IMG/VR virus record: IMGVR_UViG_3300008050_000375
Coordinates: 1 to 21,675 of that record
Direction: 5' to 3' (one strand)
DNA length: 21,675 nt
Origin: a virus
Positions 542 to 13,006 of this stretch are shown piece by piece. Positions within the stretch are counted from its first letter, which is position 1; each line of letters begins with the position of its first letter. Both the position numbers and the translations under genes were made by a program. The notes under the pieces were generated by a model that did no database searches, was not told the origin of the DNA, and saw only the letters and a list, made by a program, of their open reading frames with translations.

Positions 542-1798
542 TTAACCAAATCCTCTACGCCATATTGGATATTGAGTTTGTAATCCCATAGACTCACTGG
601 CTTTAGTGCCTCCACCAAAACTTTGAGAAGGTCCGTTGCCTGAATTATTATTATTATTAGTCGTATTATTGATAATGGTTGGCGCCGAAGTAGAGTCAAC
701 GGCAGGCTTTGCCGTTTCAGATTCTTGTTGTTTTAATGTTTTATTTTCCAACATTGACTTGTTTGCAACTGTTGATAATGTTTGGTTTTGATTTTTAATT
801 ATTTGTGCTGAGTTTTGACCGTACTGGTTAACAGTTTGTCTAATAACTGGTCGAAGATTATTATTACCATCTTTCATAGTATCTTTAATCTTCGTTTCTT
901 TTATCTTCGACACTGGTGTCACTATTTCGTCTTCACCTTTGTCGGCCAGTAAAGCCAATTTCCCACCAAATGTTCTTTCAACTGGTGAACCGGCCGGTGT
1001 ACCTTCACCATATGCAGGTATAGTTTTAGGAACTTGTGATTTACCAGATAATATTTTATTTACTGTTGACTTATCTATAGTAAAATATTTCTTATTTATT
1101 CTATTGGTATTAGTATCTGTGTTTCTTTCTAGTATATTTGATAATGCTTTATTTGATATATTCGTTTTGTTTATTGTAAAAGATAACGGGTTTTTATTAT
1201 TGTTGGTGTTATTTGTTATTGTTGGTAATTTAATATTCTTATTATTTCTTACATTGTTGTTTTTGGTTTCGTTTCTGTGATGATTATGAAATAACATTTT
1301 TTTAATGTTGTTCTGTACATTTTTTATATTTTTGGTTTCTTTGTGTGAAGCCTTTTCTTCTATTGATACTGGATTTATCACAGAAGGAATTTTAATTTCC
1401 TTTGGAATATTAATTATTCTTTTGTTGTTTTTAGTGTCTGTGTTGTAATGCTTCTCTATTCTTTTGTTGTTTTTAGTGTCTGTGTTGTAATGCTTCTCTA
1501 TTGTGTTGTTGTTTTTGGTGTCTGTATAGTGCTTCTCTATTGTCTTTGTATTGAGATAATCTTTTGGTTTATTGATAATAAAGTCTATTCTTTTATTTAA
1601 TTTTAATATTGATTCATTAAGTTCTGTTGGAATGTAATTTTGTTCTTTTTTTGGTTGTTCCTTTTTTTTCTTTTCAATGGGGTTGAGTATTTTGGGTATT
1701 GGATTTTTATCTTTTGGAACTATATTGACAGCATCTCCATTCTTTCTTTTATTAAAGTGGGAAATAATATTTTGTTTAATTTTCTTTTTATTCTTCAT
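542..1798 (-). CDS. Asn/Lys-rich low-complexity protein of unknown function (418 aa)
   Basis: I do not recognise this gene. It starts 5 bases after the 68-residue frame ends and is the last gene of the minus-strand operon. The N-terminal ~60 residues are very Lys-rich. About residues 85-130 hold a tandem repeat IEKHYNTDTKNNKR (two exact 14-residue copies plus one degenerate). The middle is Asn-rich. A more ordinary stretch near residues 255-300 contains GEGTPAGSPVERTFGGKLAL. The C-terminal third is Gln/Asn/Ser-rich (TIINNTTNNNNNSG) and ends PIWRRGFG. No signal peptide or membrane segment is visible. The gene lies just after a tail-assembly-chaperone-like pair, the slot where many long-tailed phages place the tape measure. 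However, the composition does not look like a long helical tape measure and the length is short. A structural or hub-associated role is only inferred. No strong ribosome binding site is visible, so translation may be coupled. Confidence 0.75.
   Translation of the reverse strand: MKNKKKIKQNIISHFNKRKNGDAVNIVPKDKNPIPKILNPIEKKKKEQPKKEQNYIPTELNESILKLNKRIDFIINKPKDYLNTKTIEKHYTDTKNNNTIEKHYNTDTKNNKRIEKHYNTDTKNNKRIINIPKEIKIPSVINPVSIEEKASHKETKNIKNVQNNIKKMLFHNHHRNETKNNNVRNNKNIKLPTITNNTNNNKNPLSFTINKTNISNKALSNILERNTDTNTNRINKKYFTIDKSTVNKILSGKSQVPKTIPAYGEGTPAGSPVERTFGGKLALLADKGEDEIVTPVSKIKETKIKDTMKDGNNNLRPVIRQTVNQYGQNSAQIIKNQNQTLSTVANKSMLENKTLKQQESETAKPAVDSTSAPTIINNTTNNNNNSGNGPSQSFGGGTKASESMGLQTQYPIWRRGFG
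1415..1537 (-). repeat. Tandem 42-bp repeat (3 copies) inside the 418-aa gene
   Basis: Two identical 42-bp units (1415-1456 and 1457-1498) are followed by a degenerate 39-bp third unit (1499-1537). Each is a whole number of codons, so the repeat adds 14-, 14- and 13-residue blocks of the type IEKHYNTDTKNNKR. Exact identity of the first two copies suggests recent slippage or unequal recombination. Confidence 0.9.
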
Positions 1799-1803
1799 TT
1801 AAT

Positions 1804-2010
1804 TTACCCAACCAAATTTGTTCTTGAACCAGCCCTTTCTGATTCTATCTGTGCTAATTTTATTCTCTCATTCTCTACTTCTATATATTCAATTAATTGA
1901 GCCAAATACACATCTCTTTCCCACGGAATAAGATTTTCTAATTCATTTAGACTATATTTGTGGTGTTGTACCATCTGGAATATGGTTTGGAAGTAATCTT
2001 TAAGACTCAT
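1804..2010 (-). CDS. Small helical protein downstream of gp26; probable frameshift extension (chaperone 'T-like' part)
   Basis: This 68-residue frame holds the motif SLNELENLIPWERDVYLAQL followed by a charged helix (IEYIEVENERIKLAQIESER). Short proteins or domains of this kind follow gp26 in marine T4-like phages. The ATG at 2008-2010 lies 11 bases after the gp26 stop and has only a weak upstream purine run (AGGG). The frame is -1 relative to gp26 and open back to the slippery heptamer at 2028-2034. A -1 shift there would add RLGLSH and then read straight through this frame, giving a fusion of 312 residues (complement 1804..2741). Position and layout match the C-terminal extension of tail-assembly chaperones such as lambda GT. 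Whether it is also made separately from its own ATG is open. It could correspond to the small hub-assembly factor sometimes labelled gp51. Confidence 0.75.
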   Translation of the reverse strand: MSLKDYFQTIFQMVQHHKYSLNELENLIPWERDVYLAQLIEYIEVENERIKLAQIESERAGSRTNLVG

Positions 2011-2021
2011 GTGGCTGAGCC

Positions 2022-2741
2022 CTAGCCGAAAAAATCCGAAAGTCCTGACAACACCACCTCTCTTTCAACATTATCTGATGTGGTATATAAAACCTTATGT
2101 TCTACTCTAGGGGATGTTAAAAAGAAATCTAATATTTTTTCAAACTGTTTCTTGGTCATATTATCAACAAATTCTAACATTTCTTCTTTAGGTATAGTAG
2201 ATGAATTAATTAATTCAGACTTTGTTTGTATGGAAACTATACAATCGGAAATTAAATCATAGAAAGTAGAAGGGTCTTCATAATCAATAACACCATCTCT
2301 TTTATCTAAATCATCTAATGTGGGATATCTCATTTTTAGTATGATTTCTCTGCTTATTTTTATTTCTTTTGTGTGTCCTTCTGTCTTTGTTACTTTTATG
2401 TCTGGTATTAATACCTTTACTGGTATATTTTCTTTTGTAAATGGACACACAACCACGGGTTCGATACCTTCCCCCACAGACTTTTCTCTTATTTGTAGAA
2501 ATATATATTCTATATCAAATAGTGGTAATGAGCCTACATCTTCTATATCATCGACACACGATTCTATTATATTCTTTATTGCTCTAATCATGGAAGAAGC
2601 TTCTTCTGACTGTTGAGCAAGAAGAAGTATCTTTTCTTCTTTTACCAAAAAAGGTCTAAATGATTTTTTATCACCAGAAGATGGAAGAACTACTTCATAT
2701 TTTGGAATATCTGACACTAATAAATTTGACAATCTGTTCAT
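2022..2741 (-). CDS. gp26: Baseplate hub assembly protein gp26-like (putative tail assembly chaperone)
   Basis: The 239-residue protein has the pattern typical of gp26 in marine T4-like phages: an N-terminal LPSSGDKKSFRPFLVKEEKIL, a helical stretch with IIESCVDDIEDVGSLPLFD, and then IEYIFLQIREKSVGEGI. The next part, VVCPFTKENIPVKVLIPDI, is a beta-rich segment. The C-terminal half is helical (YPTLDDLDK, EEMLEFVDNMTKKQFEKIL). T4 gp26 is about 208 residues and is needed to assemble the central hub. It is not certain that it stays in the virion. The start is supported by a GAGGT ribosome binding site 7 bases upstream and a TATAAATA promoter just beyond it. The gene ends GAT TTT TTC GGC TAG, carrying the heptamer T TTT TTC in frame. 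A fraction of ribosomes is therefore likely to enter the 68-residue frame. Confidence 0.8.
   Translation of the reverse strand: MNRLSNLLVSDIPKYEVVLPSSGDKKSFRPFLVKEEKILLLAQQSEEASSMIRAIKNIIESCVDDIEDVGSLPLFDIEYIFLQIREKSVGEGIEPVVVCPFTKENIPVKVLIPDIKVTKTEGHTKEIKISREIILKMRYPTLDDLDKRDGVIDYEDPSTFYDLISDCIVSIQTKSELINSSTIPKEEMLEFVDNMTKKQFEKILDFFLTSPRVEHKVLYTTSDNVEREVVLSGLSDFFG
2028..2034 (-). other. Putative programmed -1 ribosomal frameshift site T TTT TTC at the end of gp26
   Basis: Read on the minus strand, the last gp26 codons are GAT TTT TTC GGC TAG. The heptamer T TTT TTC fits X XXY YYZ in the zero frame, so both P- and A-site Phe tRNAs can re-pair with TTT TTT after slipping back one base. The -1 frame then reads CGG CTA GGG CTC AGC CAC ATG, entering the 68-residue frame without a stop. 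Six bases past the heptamer a weak stem, GGCTC (2021-2017) with GAGTC (2008-2004, one G-U pair), could act as a stimulator. A GGCT/AGCC helix also lies beside it. The structure is weak, but the frame and heptamer are clear. Confidence 0.7.
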
Positions 2742-2770: not shown

Positions 2771-3370
2771 TCACTTAATATTATACTTCACCGCTCGAGG
2801 GGAGCCCGATGGGGAGTCGCCAGAGTGGAATGCATAATGTCTATATTTAAATGCAACCTGTAATCTTGTATAATCATTAAACATATTTGCACCTAGAGAT
2901 GAAGGAAATATGGTTGATGGATAAACTTCCTGGAATTCATATGTAGATGTTACTTTATCTGATTCGTCTAATGTTTTTATTGACATGTGTGCTATACCAA
3001 CAAAAGTTGAATAATTATGCTGTTCTGGGTACAAGCCCCACTTCATCAGATGGTCAGGAACTATTGAGCTCATCCATCCTTCAAAAAATGCTCTTTCTCT
3101 TTGGTCTGATGATACAGGAAAAACGGCAACTACTTCTCCAGTATATGAATTACCAATAGGAACGGTTCTTTTGGGACCAAACCATTGTTCATCTGTGGTT
3201 ATAAAACCTCTAGTCGGTAGGTTTAAAGATTCTGCTGGAAATATAGGGTTTGAGTATTTATTACCACCGTTTGGAATATTTGCAAATTCTATACGATATC
3301 TAGAAGGTTTTGCCAGTCCATTTCTCAGAAATGTGTTTTTGAAATAGTCTATTGATGATGTTGATGCCAT
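2771..3370 (-). CDS. gp54: Baseplate tail-tube initiator gp54-like (gp19/gp54 tube fold)
   Basis: The 199-residue protein begins with DYFKNTFLRNGLAKPSRYRI and continues EFANIPNGG. The opening 'NG.AKPSRY.VEF..P' is shared by T4-type tail-tube proteins (gp19) and the tube initiator gp54. Further features are an aromatic segment TTDEQWFGPKRTVP, a mid-region VVAVFPVSSDQRERAFFEGW typical of the tube fold (small residue changes leading to a helix 'R.FFE.W'), and a C-terminal beta-rich region (VTSTYEFQEVYPS, LQVAFKYRHY). gp54 forms the hexameric ring on the hub that starts tube polymerisation. T4 gp54 is about 320 residues, so this is closer to a bare tube domain. A tail-tube (gp19) paralogue is the main alternative. 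The baseplate neighbours favour gp54. AGAGGA lies 10 bases before the ATG and TATAAATA lies further upstream. Confidence 0.7.
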   Translation of the reverse strand: MASTSSIDYFKNTFLRNGLAKPSRYRIEFANIPNGGNKYSNPIFPAESLNLPTRGFITTDEQWFGPKRTVPIGNSYTGEVVAVFPVSSDQRERAFFEGWMSSIVPDHLMKWGLYPEQHNYSTFVGIAHMSIKTLDESDKVTSTYEFQEVYPSTIFPSSLGANMFNDYTRLQVAFKYRHYAFHSGDSPSGSPRAVKYNIK

Positions 3371-5811: not shown

Positions 5812-7974
5812 ATGATGGATAAGCAAACACTATCAGACATTAATATAAAAAAAATAGTTATACGAAATAAACGAAGTGAAACAGAACTTCAAATTATACC
5901 TGCACCAACAAAAGGTGGTGCAATAGAAGAACTATTCGTTAGTATGCAAATTAATGAAAATATAATGCGTAACGGTATTATTGGTTCTCTAAAATTTAAA
6001 GAACCAAGTTCTGTTGGTGATTATTTTAATATGACAGGTAATGAATTTGTAGACATAGAAATGGAATCTCCAGAGATTGAAAATTCTGAACACAAATTAA
6101 CCTTCTGTGTGAATGATGTAAGAGCAACAGGTAATGAAGCAACAGAAGCAACATCTGGACCAAGTGCTAGGTATGGTTCCGGGTGGGAAGTTGAATTTGT
6201 GTCTTGTGAAAGTTACATATTAGATTGGGACAATCTAGATTATATGGATGAAGATTTTATTGGACCAATTGTAGGTGATGGTGGTTTAGTAAATGAGTTA
6301 GCAGAAAAATATTTAAATCCTGAGGCTGTAGACGGATTTTCCAACGCTCAAAAACCAATGGACCTTAAAGATACTACACATAACTGGATATGGTTGAAAA
6401 AAAATCAAAGCATGTATCCTTGGGGCAAAGATGTTCATCCACCAAACCTTATGCAACTTATGAATAACCTTGCAGAAAATGCTGTTACGGAAGACTTGGG
6501 TGGTGTAAATTATTTATTTTATGCAGACTTGGGTGGATGGCACTTTAAATCTATTAGACAAATGATTAAAGATGCAAAAGAAAAGGGTGTTCTTTATGGT
6601 GGTGCGCATGGTGGAGCAAACGAATATAGAGTTGCTGATGTAGATGATGATGGTGAAGGGGTTGGTAACAAAAATATTAAATCGATAATAAACTTTAGTG
6701 AGTATGACCATTTAAATGCGTTCAAGTCTGGTGCATATACATCATATTATGAAAGAATAAAACCATCATATGAAGACCCTTATTTTGAATATGTAGATTT
6801 TACGACTGCACATACGCATCCGCTATCAACTAATTGGGGAGGCAGAGAAATTGTTACATATGGTTATCATGAGGATGGGGAAGATGGAAAATGGGGTGAC
6901 CATGAGGATGGGGGAAGGGTAGAAAAATTTAAACTTCTTCCAAATAGTATAGAAACTTCTATTGATGTTAAGAATCCAGTAAACATAGAAAGAAAGTCAG
7001 TAAGAAAACATGATGTAACTGGACTGTATGGTTATTTTGATTCTCCGTATAATTATCATGGAGAAAAGTCTTATGATTTTCTTGGCTCTGCGGCACTAGA
7101 AGGAAAGCAAGGAAAAAGAAATGATAAACTTTGGCAAACAATGTTCGACCAAACAAATCTTGAAGGGGAAATAATAAAAACCATTCAAAAAGATATTAAA
7201 AAACCAATATCCGATAAAATTAAAGAACACCTTCAAGTAATGAATCTTAAAGAAAAGTTTAATGTGTACAGACACTCGATTTGTTGTGATAAACAAACTA
7301 TTAAACCCTTTGTCTTTCTTGCAGTTATTGAAGATGCAAAAAAAGTCACAGAAGATGATAGGGGTGGAATCTACGAATACTCTTGGAGAGAAGTTGAGAT
7401 ATGGCCCAGTGACCATGTGGAAGACAATTTGGGTACAGATATTAGTCCAGAAGGTTCGCCAGTAAAAATTGTTAAACCACCTGAAGGTAAAGGACTAGCA
7501 GGAACATTTAGAGAAAATAATCCCACTTCAGAATCAGAGTGGACAAACCCCGCTTATAACTTGAATGAATTAATGAATGAAATGGTAGGGGTTAATGTTA
7601 ATGTTGGTCCTGGAATTAATGTTGCTGATTTAGAATATAATGATTATCCCGAATCATATCAAATGATGCCAGTCGGTGGGTATTTTCAAGTTCCAGAGGA
7701 TGGTGATATGTTGGTAGACCCATGTGCATTAGAAGATGAAGATGGTAATGGTATAATGGATGGGCCTTGGACTATGAAACACCACATTGTACAGATGTAT
7801 AGAATTCCTAACTACATGCTAGGAGAATTAAATGAAGACGGAGAAATTGTAAAGGGGACAATTGCTCCAAGAGAAGAAGACCCATTGGGTGAACCAGACC
7901 CAACTATTCCAAAAGACATATACTTCTTCGATGTTCCAAATGCACATGATGGACTGTGCGGGTGTCTTTCTTAA
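5812..7974 (+). CDS. Large baseplate hub protein (gp27-like N-terminal part)
   Basis: The first ~110 residues (SDINIKKIVIRNKRSETELQ, then EELFVSMQINENIMRNGIIG, LKFKEPSSVGDYF and GNEFVDIEMESPE) match the opening beta-barrel of marine T4-like hub proteins in the gp27 position: a secondary-structure-rich 'I..I.I.N' strand, then an 'E..F....G.L.I.D...L...P..G.EFV.I' pattern. Residues ~210-245 (NLMQLMNNLAENAV, NYLFYADLGGWHFKSI) resemble the second hub domain. The C-terminus holds Asp/Gly-rich loops and a segment HHIVQMYRIPNYMLGELNED. The hub would form the trimeric centre of the baseplate. At 720 residues it is much longer than T4 gp27 (391). A second ATG at 5815 lies at better spacing from AAGGGTG (5801-5807). 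A 13-bp direct repeat occurs at 6868-6880 and 6901-6913. The usual hub C-terminal motif is not obvious here but appears in the gene at 12176. Confidence 0.62.
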   Translation: MMDKQTLSDINIKKIVIRNKRSETELQIIPAPTKGGAIEELFVSMQINENIMRNGIIGSLKFKEPSSVGDYFNMTGNEFVDIEMESPEIENSEHKLTFCVNDVRATGNEATEATSGPSARYGSGWEVEFVSCESYILDWDNLDYMDEDFIGPIVGDGGLVNELAEKYLNPEAVDGFSNAQKPMDLKDTTHNWIWLKKNQSMYPWGKDVHPPNLMQLMNNLAENAVTEDLGGVNYLFYADLGGWHFKSIRQMIKDAKEKGVLYGGAHGGANEYRVADVDDDGEGVGNKNIKSIINFSEYDHLNAFKSGAYTSYYERIKPSYEDPYFEYVDFTTAHTHPLSTNWGGREIVTYGYHEDGEDGKWGDHEDGGRVEKFKLLPNSIETSIDVKNPVNIERKSVRKHDVTGLYGYFDSPYNYHGEKSYDFLGSAALEGKQGKRNDKLWQTMFDQTNLEGEIIKTIQKDIKKPISDKIKEHLQVMNLKEKFNVYRHSICCDKQTIKPFVFLAVIEDAKKVTEDDRGGIYEYSWREVEIWPSDHVEDNLGTDISPEGSPVKIVKPPEGKGLAGTFRENNPTSESEWTNPAYNLNELMNEMVGVNVNVGPGINVADLEYNDYPESYQMMPVGGYFQVPEDGDMLVDPCALEDEDGNGIMDGPWTMKHHIVQMYRIPNYMLGELNEDGEIVKGTIAPREEDPLGEPDPTIPKDIYFFDVPNAHDGLCGCLS

Positions 7975-7990
7975 TTAGTATACTTATATT

Positions 7991-10900
7991 ATGAGAACCA
8001 TAAAAACATGTTGCTGTTGCGGGGATAAACCTTGTAAAGATTGGGATAACGAATATCGTTATGGTGGTGGTGAAGCGAATTGTCCTATATGTGCGTTGGG
8101 CACAACTACAATTAGTGCAACAGACTTTGAAGAATTTGCTCCATATGAACCCACACGAAATCAAGGTGATGAGGAATGGGACGGACGAGAAGTATTTACC
8201 TTTGGACATAAAGACAATTTACATTTTGGTGATCTGTGTTTTCACCACGACCCTGAAGATGGTTGGGAGTTTTATCCTGAAGAATGTGAGTGGAATGTTT
8301 GTTGGAATGAATACCCAGATTACTTTGGATATCCATTCCCTGTTCCAGAATCTACATTCTATCAATATGATTCTCCTATGGGACTTCTCCCATGGTCACC
8401 ACAAGCATTTACAGATTGGATAGACAATTGGGATGGACCACTATTACCAAAAGGTGATTGCACAATGCACTGTACTCTTGGTAGTGAAGGTAATCTTGGT
8501 TGTCATAAATTGGCATTCGTTGGTGCTATTGGAAAGAACTTTGGTTCTCAACATGCTAATACAGATGGTGCTGGTGAAATGAAGGGTCCATTGTGCGGTT
8601 CTGACATTGTTACTGTTCCACCACCCGAAAGTGATTGGCCTGAAATCCGTGAATGGGTTAGGTCTGGTGGTAAATTAATTGTTATGGGAGAATCCAGTGG
8701 AAGTCCAATGGAAGGAACAGAATGTAAAGAGAAGATAGGATTCTTTAATGGAGATTCAACTTATTATACTGATAGGTGTCTAGACGATTTAAGTGGTGAA
8801 GCACCATTACAACTTGATGGTTTAGAAGTAGCGGAACTATTAAGAAACTTTGCACTGTATTGCGCGCAACAAGAAGATGAAGAAGAAATAGAAGAATTCT
8901 TTAAATTTAGAGATGATGAATATTATGATGAAGAAAGAGATGAAAACTACATCAATACCTTTGAAGCATTTGAATTGGAAGATGATGTAGCAACAACAAT
9001 CTCTTGTTGTCAACGATCAAAAAGACCATTTCTAAAACGAGATTCAGAAGAAGACCCATCAAAATCATTTTCGTTTCATTGTTCTTCGAGTAGTGGACTC
9101 CTTCCAAAAGGAAAAGGTAAAGGACTAGTCGGACACTGTAACGGTGAAGGGTGTACAGTTGTGTGGAAACCTAATGGTGCCGGTGCAGTTGTCGTTGTAT
9201 ATGATTCCAATGTTTGGGGTGCTACCAATTCACAGATTCCAATGAGTTGGTGGGAAAATGAAACTTTACATCCAGAAATTCAACTCGATGCAGAAACATT
9301 AAAACTGAGAGCCTGCAATAGTGATTTCTGGAGATTTATGTGTGAAGATTTTCTTGATGGTGAGATGCCAAATTATTCATGCACAGAGAGTGATAGTTAT
9401 TGGGATAACAAAGAACCAGATAATTATACTTCTGAAAATCCATGTCTTCCAACTGCACCATGTTGTTTACCAAACGAAGTTTGTCTAGACGATGTTACTG
9501 TCTGGGAATGTTTTAAACATGTAGATGAAAATGGAAATAGATTGCCTGGCATTTGGCATGGTCCTTCAGCAGTTCATCCGAGTGGTGTTGGTTCTTGTGA
9601 TTTGACATGTGGAGATATTACTTGCGAACCACAAGAAAAAAAATTATGCTGTTCTTTAGCAGAAGGATGTTCTCAGAGTAGCCTTCAAGGACCAGATTGT
9701 TGTTTGAGTGAAGGGAAAGGATTCGATGGTGGTAATTTAGTATACAAATATGAATGTTGTGAACTTGCAAAAGCTGCCGGATATGAACCATCGGATGTTG
9801 AAGATATGTGGACACTCACTGGTGATGAATATGGTGATAGTGGTGATAGTTGTGATGCTTGTTATGTTATTGGTGCGTGTTGTTATCCATATGGATGTGA
9901 AGAAGTGGTAAGACAACATGTGTGTGAAAAAACCTTTGGCATTTTTCAAGGCCCCAATAGTGTTTGCAATCCCGATCCGTGTGTTGGTGCATGTTGTTGT
10001 TGGGATAGTTTTGAATGTTATGACGATTTTACAGAAGACGATTGTATGAGTGCATGTGGTGAGGATGCTTGGCAGCAAGCAGGATCGGTTTGTGGCGATA
10101 ATGATGTTATTTGTGGTTTTCCAACAGAGGGTGCGTGTTGTTTAGATACAGGCGAATGTACAATACTTACGCCTAAGAATTGTGCGGCGCAGGGTGGTGT
10201 TTTTGATGGTATTGGTTCTTTGTGTGCTGATGTAGATTGCCCTCAACCAGGTGCGTGTTGTTTGAGTGAAGGTGGATGTACATACGGTCTGGAAACATCT
10301 TGCGATGCAGATGCTGGTGATGCTTGGCAGGGAGCGGGATATTCGTGTGGTGATGTAGATTGCCCTGGGGTTGACGTAACTGCATGTTGTATCGATGATG
10401 GGGAAAATGCAGGCTGTGAAAACTGTCAAGAACTAACCGATACACAATGTGACGCCGAGGGAGGAATAAGTGACCCAAACAACATGTGTGCTGATAACCC
10501 CTGCAATACAAGTGGATGTGTGGGCGGTGCGTGTTGTGTCAATAACTCTCTAGGAGAGTGTGGTGCGTGGGGAGATTGTTGTTGTGTAGATGATGTAACA
10601 ACAGAAGAATGTTACTCAATGGGAGTGCAGGACCCTGGTGGTACTCAACCCAATACATTTCATGATGCCACGCAGTGTGATGAAGTTGATTGTTGTGGTT
10701 CATGTTGTTGTATAGATGGTGGTGAAAGTTTCTGTTTAAGTACCGAGTATATGTGGGGTGAATGGAGTTGTGTAGTACTTCCCCACGAAGAATGTAACGG
10801 AACTCCATTCTGGAATCCTTGCGACAATTGTTTTTGTGAGGATGTGTCTGGTGGTGAAGAAATACATTGTGAATCATTTGGTTCTTGTTGTATTTCTGAA

Positions 10901-12148
10901 TGTTTTGATGGGGACATGCCCGTCAGTTGTATAGGATATTGTGTAAATGTTAAAAACGAACAAGAATGTGTTGATTTAGAAACCGCAACAAACACAATAT
11001 ATTATAATGAAGAACAAATGTGCGATGAAGAAGATATAGAAAGTCCAATGTGTAGACCTGGATATTGTTGTTACAATGATGGAAACTGTAAAGACTGCTC
11101 ATTTGAAAATGAATGTACGGTTGATTTGGCAGGTGATTGGACTGCGTATAGTGAAAATTGTACAGAAGACGAGCCAGAAGACACTTGCTATGACACAGAT
11201 GGTACTATATGCGACCCAGATGCAGAAGGTGGATGTTGTATAGATGGAACTTGTCATGATGATCACACAGAGAAATCGTGTGGCGCTTTGTTTGGTGTTT
11301 GGCTTGATGGTGAAATTTGTTTGGATGACGACACAGATGAATATCAATGTGACCCAAACAAAGGGACATGTTGCAACAGTGATTTTAGTTGTTTATGTTC
11401 AGGGGCATGGTATTGTGTACATGATTTCTGCAATGAATGGGGTGGGATGTGGTTCGGATATGTAGTTGATCAATGCAATGATTTTTGTGGGGCAGACGCC
11501 ACGCTTGGAGCATGTTGTCTTAATGATTGTGGTTACTGTTTAGAGATAAGCAGCACGGCTTGTGGTCAATACGCTGGAAGTCAATTTCAAGGTGACAATA
11601 CATTTTGTGGTATAGATGGTCCTTGTGCTTGGAAAGGTGCGTGTTGCACCCATTACGCGCCATCAGGGGGGTCTGCGTGTGTAAATATGGGCAACAGCCA
11701 TGGTGGCATTGTATATGATGGGACGGCATCATCCTGCGCGGAATTTAGCGAGGGAACTTCAAATGCCTATGTTTGGCTGCCGTATTGGTTTGGACCTTGT
11801 GAAACCTGTTCTGGTCATTCTTGCAATGTTGTATGTTGCGCGATTGATTGGGATGGTGATGGTTGGTGTGATTGGGATGGTTGGTGTGGTGATGGTTGTA
11901 TGGTGTCTACATTAAATGAATGCATCAACAATTGCAATTATGGTAGCAACTTGCCAGATTGGGTTTGGGTAGATGTTCCTCCCCACTACACTTGTTCGGA
12001 CTGCTATTGTTCCCAGCTGGGCACACTTGACGGAACACCTGATGCCGGAACACCAGAAATTCCACAGCAAACTTGTCCACAAGAATGCATTGATGCAGGA
12101 TGTGAATGTAATTGTTTAAACACAAGAAATGGTATAGTATGTCTATAA
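7991..12148 (+). CDS. Giant cysteine-rich structural/adhesin-like protein (1385 aa)
   Basis: This single unbroken frame has about 150 cysteines by hand count, roughly 11 percent. Three parts are visible. Residues 1-170 hold CCCC at 7-10 and many Trp, Tyr and acidic residues. Residues ~170-460 resemble a class I glutamine-amidotransferase-like or DUF4350-like Rossmann fold: a strand KLAFVGAIG, the helix-strand pair EIREWVRSGGKLIVMGE, GAVVVVYDSNVWG, and a closing NSDFWRFMCEDFL, with an acidic insertion at 294-332. Residues ~485-1385 are Cys-rich with about thirteen GxCC-type repeats (first GACC at 628, last at 1216, spacing near 40-48). The core pattern is GACC-x5-GxC-x(n)-C-x(n)-GxGxxC-x3-DCP. 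Similar GACC repeats are known to me from long extracellular proteins of planctomycetes and relatives. No membrane segment is visible. The location between two hub-like genes suggests a baseplate or tail-tip component. There is no Shine-Dalgarno before the ATG. Exact function is unknown. Confidence 0.8.
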   Translation: MRTIKTCCCCGDKPCKDWDNEYRYGGGEANCPICALGTTTISATDFEEFAPYEPTRNQGDEEWDGREVFTFGHKDNLHFGDLCFHHDPEDGWEFYPEECEWNVCWNEYPDYFGYPFPVPESTFYQYDSPMGLLPWSPQAFTDWIDNWDGPLLPKGDCTMHCTLGSEGNLGCHKLAFVGAIGKNFGSQHANTDGAGEMKGPLCGSDIVTVPPPESDWPEIREWVRSGGKLIVMGESSGSPMEGTECKEKIGFFNGDSTYYTDRCLDDLSGEAPLQLDGLEVAELLRNFALYCAQQEDEEEIEEFFKFRDDEYYDEERDENYINTFEAFELEDDVATTISCCQRSKRPFLKRDSEEDPSKSFSFHCSSSSGLLPKGKGKGLVGHCNGEGCTVVWKPNGAGAVVVVYDSNVWGATNSQIPMSWWENETLHPEIQLDAETLKLRACNSDFWRFMCEDFLDGEMPNYSCTESDSYWDNKEPDNYTSENPCLPTAPCCLPNEVCLDDVTVWECFKHVDENGNRLPGIWHGPSAVHPSGVGSCDLTCGDITCEPQEKKLCCSLAEGCSQSSLQGPDCCLSEGKGFDGGNLVYKYECCELAKAAGYEPSDVEDMWTLTGDEYGDSGDSCDACYVIGACCYPYGCEEVVRQHVCEKTFGIFQGPNSVCNPDPCVGACCCWDSFECYDDFTEDDCMSACGEDAWQQAGSVCGDNDVICGFPTEGACCLDTGECTILTPKNCAAQGGVFDGIGSLCADVDCPQPGACCLSEGGCTYGLETSCDADAGDAWQGAGYSCGDVDCPGVDVTACCIDDGENAGCENCQELTDTQCDAEGGISDPNNMCADNPCNTSGCVGGACCVNNSLGECGAWGDCCCVDDVTTEECYSMGVQDPGGTQPNTFHDATQCDEVDCCGSCCCIDGGESFCLSTEYMWGEWSCVVLPHEECNGTPFWNPCDNCFCEDVSGGEEIHCESFGSCCISECFDGDMPVSCIGYCVNVKNEQECVDLETATNTIYYNEEQMCDEEDIESPMCRPGYCCYNDGNCKDCSFENECTVDLAGDWTAYSENCTEDEPEDTCYDTDGTICDPDAEGGCCIDGTCHDDHTEKSCGALFGVWLDGEICLDDDTDEYQCDPNKGTCCNSDFSCLCSGAWYCVHDFCNEWGGMWFGYVVDQCNDFCGADATLGACCLNDCGYCLEISSTACGQYAGSQFQGDNTFCGIDGPCAWKGACCTHYAPSGGSACVNMGNSHGGIVYDGTASSCAEFSEGTSNAYVWLPYWFGPCETCSGHSCNVVCCAIDWDGDGWCDWDGWCGDGCMVSTLNECINNCNYGSNLPDWVWVDVPPHYTCSDCYCSQLGTLDGTPDAGTPEIPQQTCPQECIDAGCECNCLNTRNGIVCL
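9872..11670 (+). repeat. Degenerate GxCC cysteine-repeat array within the 1385-aa gene
   Basis: Recurring units begin with Gly-x-Cys-Cys. Examples by residue are GACC at 628, 666, 714, 754 and 1216, with GSCC, GYCC, GGCC and GTCC variants between. At DNA level the exact string ggtgcgtgttgt begins at 9872, and ggtgcgtgttg recurs at 10130 and 10250. Units are 38-48 residues apart where I measured them. This is a protein-level repeat, not a CRISPR or a site for DNA recombination as far as can be seen. Confidence 0.75.
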
Positions 12149-12175: not shown

Positions 12176-13006
12176 ATGGCAGAACATGACTTTCTAGTAA
12201 AACTCACTCACTTTGCTAACACCGAATGGCCTAGTGTCAAGTTGGGTCATTCTGTTGGTGCATTTGATGATAAATATCCGTGTGCTAATCCAGAAGGTCC
12301 TGTGGACAATTCTGGATGTAAAGACAGTGACCCAAATAATCCTCTTTGTATGTGCCCATGTCAAGAATTAAATCCCTTTAAAGAGTCTCACTTGATTGAT
12401 TTTCCGTGGTATGTTGATATGGTTACTGGTTTTGGTGCTGGTGCTGGTCTTTTAAATTTAATACTTGGTAACGAAGACCACACATTAGAACCCACAAAAG
12501 AACAAATAAGAGAATCTGTAGAATCTATAAAAGAATGTGATTTAATAGAAGGTAACAAAAAATTGGGTAAATCTTGGATGGGATGTTTATGGAAAGACCA
12601 AAACCACCCAAGCAGTTGTGACTGCCCTTGTGTTGGAGAAAATTTTAAAAAGTATATTGAATATACAAGAACCAGTGCAACATATTGGGACACTCCTAAC
12701 GAAACTCCTTTATGGCGAGACGCTCAAATGGCTCTGATAAATTCTCAACAGGCTTCAATTATGTTAAGTGGAGATTTGAGTTTGCGACCAGGAGAAATAA
12801 TCAACATAACAAATAAAAATATTGATTCGCAAAAAGAAAGAAGAATGGCTGGTAGGTGGTTACTTGCAGAAATTCAGCACAACATGATTAGGGGTGGACA
12901 GCATACGATGCTTTGTCATTTAATCAGAGATAGTAGTCCAATTGACCCCAATGATTCTGAACATTTAGGTTTCTTTGGTGAGATTTGGGACTGGCTTTGG
13001 AATTGA
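12176..13006 (+). CDS. Hub C-terminal-domain-like protein with paired CxCPC motifs (276 aa)
   Basis: Residues ~184-255 read AQMALINSQQASIMLSGD, then LSLRPGEIINI, RRMAGRWLLAEIQHNMIRGG and HTMLCHLIRDSSP. This is the closing pattern of T4/P2-type hub proteins (gp27 or gpD-like: 'G...L..GD.I.V......L.G.YLV..V.H......Y.......RD'). The N-terminal ~160 residues are unlike that and hold two similar cysteine motifs, CMCPC (58-62) and CDCPC (148-152), each followed by an Asn-Pro/Asn-Phe-Lys-like stretch, with further cysteines at 36, 48, 121 and 137. These could bind metal or form disulfides. Together with the 720-residue gene upstream this may be a hub protein split in two, with the cysteine-rich gene between. 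AGGAG precedes the ATG by 6 bases. Confidence 0.6.
   Translation: MAEHDFLVKLTHFANTEWPSVKLGHSVGAFDDKYPCANPEGPVDNSGCKDSDPNNPLCMCPCQELNPFKESHLIDFPWYVDMVTGFGAGAGLLNLILGNEDHTLEPTKEQIRESVESIKECDLIEGNKKLGKSWMGCLWKDQNHPSSCDCPCVGENFKKYIEYTRTSATYWDTPNETPLWRDAQMALINSQQASIMLSGDLSLRPGEIINITNKNIDSQKERRMAGRWLLAEIQHNMIRGGQHTMLCHLIRDSSPIDPNDSEHLGFFGEIWDWLWN

Follow-up and report, generated by a model that had tools for sequence, protein, structure and literature searches.

Short and long versions of a tail assembly chaperone occur in the majority of long-tailed phages. In phage lambda, a tube gene, the gene for the short chaperone G, an overlapping extension and a long gene follow one another, and a -1 slip shortly before the short open reading frame ends leads to GT (PMC5009743). 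The same review names T4 as the exception. Phage P2 has a slip site, T TTT TTG, in E that closely resembles those described below, together with an annotated -1 frameshift, and its E' overlaps the tape measure gene. In the Vandenendeviridae and Andersonviridae, the TAC-N/TAC-NC pairs likewise have a poly-T slip motif and a conserved -1 extension, which annotations treat as a hypothetical gene of its own (PMC12846349). Chaperones of T4-like phages were identified by Vladimirov et al. (2022, Virology 566:9-15) according to the papers citing that work, one of which (PMC12846349, from 2025) refers to it in connection with poly-T slip sequences of T4-like TAC-N genes, and according to PMC10885494 some T4-like phages have one short gene and one long, fused gene. 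Judging from these citations, the idea of a frameshifted chaperone in T4-like phages has already been published, and the work of Vladimirov et al. may contain most of the finding presented here.

We analysed a stretch of 21,675 nucleotides from a marine T4-type virus (IMG/VR record IMGVR_UViG_3300008050_000375), called the window in the following. Its genes annotated 26 and 51 very probably constitute one locus that encodes a chaperone pair by means of a -1 frameshift with a downstream stem (Table 1). On the complement, the zero frame of gp26 ends GAT (2036-2034) TTT (2033-2031) TTC (2030-2028) GGC (2027-2025) TAG (2024-2022). The original prediction had placed the heptamer T TTT TTC at 2028-2034 in slip phase, and this is exact on the minus strand; re-pairing upon the slip would go from TTT to TTT in the P site and from TTC to TTT in the A site. 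The prediction of an open -1 frame yielding a 312-residue fusion was borne out as well, as this frame reads CGG CTA GGG CTC AGC CAC ATG and meets its first stop, TAA, at 1806-1804. The predicted fusion, with the junction peptide ...LSGLSDFFRLGLSH..., has a computed mass of 36.0 kDa compared to 27.3 kDa for the zero-frame product. A conserved overlapping -1 extension joined to the short open reading frame, by which frameshifted chaperone pairs are recognized, is present.

Table 1. Features of the 26/51 locus in the window (positions are those of the whole stretch).
Feature	Position	Strand	Basis
gp26 homologue, predicted short tail assembly chaperone (TAC-N), 239 aa	2022..2741	-	PF12322 T4_baseplate E=1.1e-55; phrog_150 E=2.6e-59
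Slippery heptamer T TTT TTC in -1 slip phase	2028..2034	-	Sequence and conservation in relatives
Zero-frame stop TAG of gp26, one codon past the heptamer	2022..2024	-	Sequence
Putative frameshift-stimulating stem-loop just downstream of the heptamer	2001..2024; arms 2016-2022/2003-2009, extendable to 9 bp	-	RNAalifold, MFE fold
-1 extension (T domain), 74 aa plus stop TAA; corresponds to cyanophage 'gp51, baseplate hub assembly catalyst'	1804..2028	-	phrog_634 E=1.1e-23
In-frame ATG of the -1 frame, possible independent start (68-aa product)	2008..2010	-	Not conserved
Tail-tube-family gene upstream of gp26; layout analogue of lambda V	2771..3370	-	phrog_45 tail tube E=4.3e-19
418-aa downstream ORF in tape-measure position; layout analogue of lambda H	542..1798	-	Position only

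The order of genes, with a tail-tube gene, 26/51 and a long open reading frame in tape-measure position, is that of lambda, whereas the heptamer and the protein sizes are different. The 418-aa downstream reading frame had no significant family match in Pfam and PHROG searches and is a candidate tape measure by its position. Long reading frames follow 26/51 in most relatives too, and among them only the Rhizobium counterpart had a match, a weak one, to a tape measure family. Profile comparison revealed no homology of P2 E' or Mu gp41 to the window proteins. The Vandenendeviridae and Andersonviridae differ from the window in having GTTTTT rather than a full heptamer and in belonging to other phage families (PMC12846349). 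Elsewhere in the window, on the plus strand, the matches to a single tail-protein profile, phrog_350, are split over two reading frames (profile positions 173-276 and 348-434). The reading frames concerned are 5812-7974, 7991-12148 and 12176-13006, and between the two matches lies a 1385-aa cysteine-rich reading frame without Pfam or PHROG match, so that a hub-type gene seems to be divided around a large cysteine-rich protein.

Taken alone, the heptamer of the window is no evidence for a frameshift and was rejected as such, because 67% of synonymous shuffles of gp26 produce a T TTT TTN heptamer within the last ten codons, a high rate that follows from the Phe-Phe encoded at the site and from the AT-rich genome. 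Heptamers of the type X XXY YYZ occur in phase 34 times within the reading frames of the window, and only at the gp26 site does the -1 frame extend far beyond the zero-frame stop, namely for 218 nt as opposed to 41 nt for the next best.

Conservation among relatives is far beyond chance and settles the matter. The original prediction would have been at odds with relatives in which the two genes are well separated or the in-phase heptamer is absent; T TTT TTC (or TTA) is instead found in phase ahead of the gp26 stop in all 80 IMG/VR loci selected by gp26 (36-89% identity), and T TTT TTN stands at the same place and in the same phase in 79 of 80 distinct loci selected by the -1 product alone, the two sets overlapping partly in that some contigs are common to both. 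The sole locus without the heptamer, L199, has ATTCATC there, and its gp26 seems to be truncated, with the end missing from just before the slip site. In Mosig and five loci of the set selected by the -1 product, the gp26 stop lies 7-8 codons further downstream and the heptamer is still in place. The preceding codon has T as its third base and the first Phe is encoded by TTT in every one of 54 divergent representatives, a fixation of wobble positions with a log10 P of about -20 under the assumption of independent positions and loci, which ignores phylogeny and is not fully warranted.

The Phe-Phe pair is conserved in the gp26 protein as well, and this accounts for some of the T run. It could accordingly be put forward that the run is kept only for an Asp/Ser-Phe-Phe element of gp26 and that the -1 frame is the scar of an old fusion. 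GL-x-[DS]-FF is in fact a conserved protein motif, and T4 retains EFF, which it encodes with TTC TTT. Such a requirement of the protein would not, however, fix the wobble positions as T TTT TTN in all of the 54 representatives, where TTT-TTC is used at the slip site in 48 of 54 cases as opposed to 3 of 53 other Phe-Phe pairs of the same genes. T4, which is devoid of the -1 extension, uses G TTC TTT, and the -1 peptide is itself conserved, so that we regard this explanation as hardly credible. In some systems six consecutive T residues can make the polymerase slip, and the fusion might then arise during transcription rather than on the ribosome; six is a short run for this process. Furthermore, the phase is strictly X XXY YYZ, the variants TTTTTTA, TTTTTTG, TTTTTTC and TTTTTTT all fit ribosomal re-pairing, and the covarying stem is placed at a distance that fits ribosomal pausing, which makes transcriptional slippage very improbable.

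The more conventional alternative is the one underlying GenBank annotation, that is, two separate proteins, with gp51 as a small catalyst of baseplate hub assembly starting on its own at ATG 2010 or another start. The ATG of the window has AGGG about 9 nt upstream, and many cyanophages possess an ATG five codons past the slip, which is annotated as the gp51 start. On the other hand, conservation of the -1 peptide begins with the very first codon past the slip, with R-[IVL]-x-x-x-H-x-x-L ... HHKYSLTE-[IL]-ENMIPWER in 39 aligned loci and RIALSHxxLENYYxxNFALMQHHKYSLTELENMIPWER... as consensus of the extension, yet the -1 frame contains no ATG, GTG or TTG up to codon 10 in 48 of the 80 loci selected by the -1 product. 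Independent initiation can therefore not be the general mechanism and was rejected as such. The ATG of the window is replaced by CTG in its closest relative, the 89%-identical L002, and is absent in L001, L003, L004 and L007, and the 31-codon annotation in P-SSM7 omits most of the conserved part. Separate genes would also leave the retention of an in-phase heptamer without a reason. We consider separate translation improbable as the explanation of this locus, bearing in mind that an independent start and a frameshift can coexist. The predicted -1 slip itself is strongly supported by the comparison of relatives.

The stem that had been predicted downstream of the heptamer is present in the window as GGGCUCA/UGAGUCU, comprises 7 to 9 bp and begins 3 to 5 nt past the heptamer; the 81-nt region folds with -19.2 kcal/mol (z = -2.46, MFE fold). 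RNAalifold with seven relatives of the same clade gave a 7-bp stem with two compensated pairs, which differs from the stem of the cyanophage type and lies at the same distance. Most loci of the cyanophage type have an 11-bp stem beginning 5 nt past the heptamer. In 67 distinct sequences, 72% of the cells of this stem are paired as opposed to 26-46% with a displaced partner, and both the covariation score (reached by 0 of 500 shuffles) and the number of cells with both sides changed are above all 500 shuffles. Two of the five measures, pairs and pair types, are not above the shuffles. At columns 21/35, U-A, A-U and G-C all occur. No more than 7 of the 11 pairs can form in about 30 of the 74 loci checked; the stem is thus not universal and likely a modulator, and we propose it as a putative stimulator of the slip.

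T4 gp26 belongs to the same family (PF12322) as that of the window, its gene ends GAG TTC TTT GAG TTA CTA TAA, runs into gene 25 and lacks the heptamer (GTTCTTT). Whereas the window would produce both forms from one locus by frameshifting, the long form of T4 is the product of a gene of its own, 51, which lies on the opposite strand. T4 gp51 consists of a PF12322 domain at residues 1-201 (E=3.9e-52) followed in a single frame by the same extension, to which the -1 extension of the window aligns over 36 columns (residues 209-244, E=1.5e-4). Phrog_150 and phrog_634 both occur in the window fusion and in T4 gp51, and the fusion lines up with gp51 along its length. The window fusion and T4 gp51 are therefore the same kind of protein, and T4 gp51, being such a fusion in one frame, indicates that a protein of this shape really exists. 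Cyanophage gp51 has been described as having about 20% of the length of T4 gp51 and as being similar only at the C-terminus (Sullivan 2010, PMC3037559). The present reading explains this description, the missing part being gp26 itself. As T4 encodes the pair as two genes, the cyanophage 'gp51' can be understood as the C-terminus that frameshifting adds to the long chaperone and that is usually misannotated as a gene in its own right. The arrangement for a frameshift in T4-type gp26, as originally predicted, is very widely conserved in relatives, whereas T4 itself is without it and relies on its separate long gene.

The proposal that gp26 is a tail assembly chaperone is supported by the homology to T4 gp26/gp51, by the position after the tail-tube gene and, weakly, by the fold, and it is not new (Vladimirov et al.). 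The structure model of gp26 is confident, with a pLDDT of 90.8. A fold search of this model against solved structures gave no significant match, with 3FGX and the HK97 chaperone 2OB9, both given as chaperones in PMC9603447, at ranks 5, 6 and 11 (E about 0.8-1.8), and a sequence search of the PDB with gp26 and T-domain profiles gave none. By analogy with lambda gpG/gpGT, the majority of ribosomes would stop at TAG 2024-2022 and release the short chaperone of 239 aa, while a fraction would slip by -1 at T TTT TTC, probably aided by the downstream stem, and synthesize the long chaperone of 312 aa. Many short and few long copies may then coat the tape measure protein and recruit tail tube subunits.

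The arrangement extends well beyond cyanophages, as most of the named non-cyanophage phages sampled keep the in-phase heptamer. Heptamer, open -1 frame and recognizable extension are found in Vibrio PVA8, KVP40-type contigs, Aeromonas Ah1 and CC2, Citrobacter Ci1, Stenotrophomonas DLP6 and Moby. Heptamer variants accompanied by an open -1 frame and an extension are TTTTTTG in Rhizobium P10VF and TTTTTTT in Caulobacter Cr30 and Acinetobacter nACB2. An open -1 frame and a recognizable extension are also present in Rhizobium phage RHph_I1_18 (L086), the slip region of which (TTTTTTAAAC, 2175-2190) lies about ten codons ahead of the stop and offers two heptamers in one phase, T TTT TTA and T TTA AAC. 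A similar -1 extension, without the heptamer, is retained in Kuttervirus CBA120 and Vibrio Ackermannviridae. In the Kuttervirus, CBA120-like loci (L090, L106-L120) this extension, HLIFEIDLLSYF...SMPWHLDLL, is located at the end of gp26 and is unannotated in CBA120; the context, GAG ATT TTC ATT TAA, is near-constant. A T7-like non-canonical slip or a GTG/ATG start is possible at this junction.

We tentatively suggest, with somewhat more doubt than confidence, that the frameshift is the ancestral route to the long chaperone in T4-type and related myoviruses, tuned by an undescribed covarying stem, and that there were at least two replacements of it. In T-even phages a duplicated fused gene 51 would have taken its place, and in Ackermannviridae such as CBA120 either a non-canonical slip (ATTTTC or TTTTTC-like) or a coupled start would have done so, the -1 extension being the same. 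The conservation of the stem and the non-canonical variant in Ackermannviridae may be new.

Annotation does not reflect this organization. Cyanophage records in GenBank, among which P-SSM2 was also examined, give gp51 as a separate gene, in shortened form (P-SSM7, 31 codons) or not at all (S-WAM1), and none of the T4-type records examined contains a join for the frameshift, whereas the P2 record has one. Many cyanophage entries for 'gp51, baseplate hub assembly catalyst' are better read as the frameshifted C-terminus of a long chaperone. Tail assembly would then follow a general rule from which T4 deviates, and testable slip sites exist in culturable phages such as P-SSM2 and KVP40-like phages.
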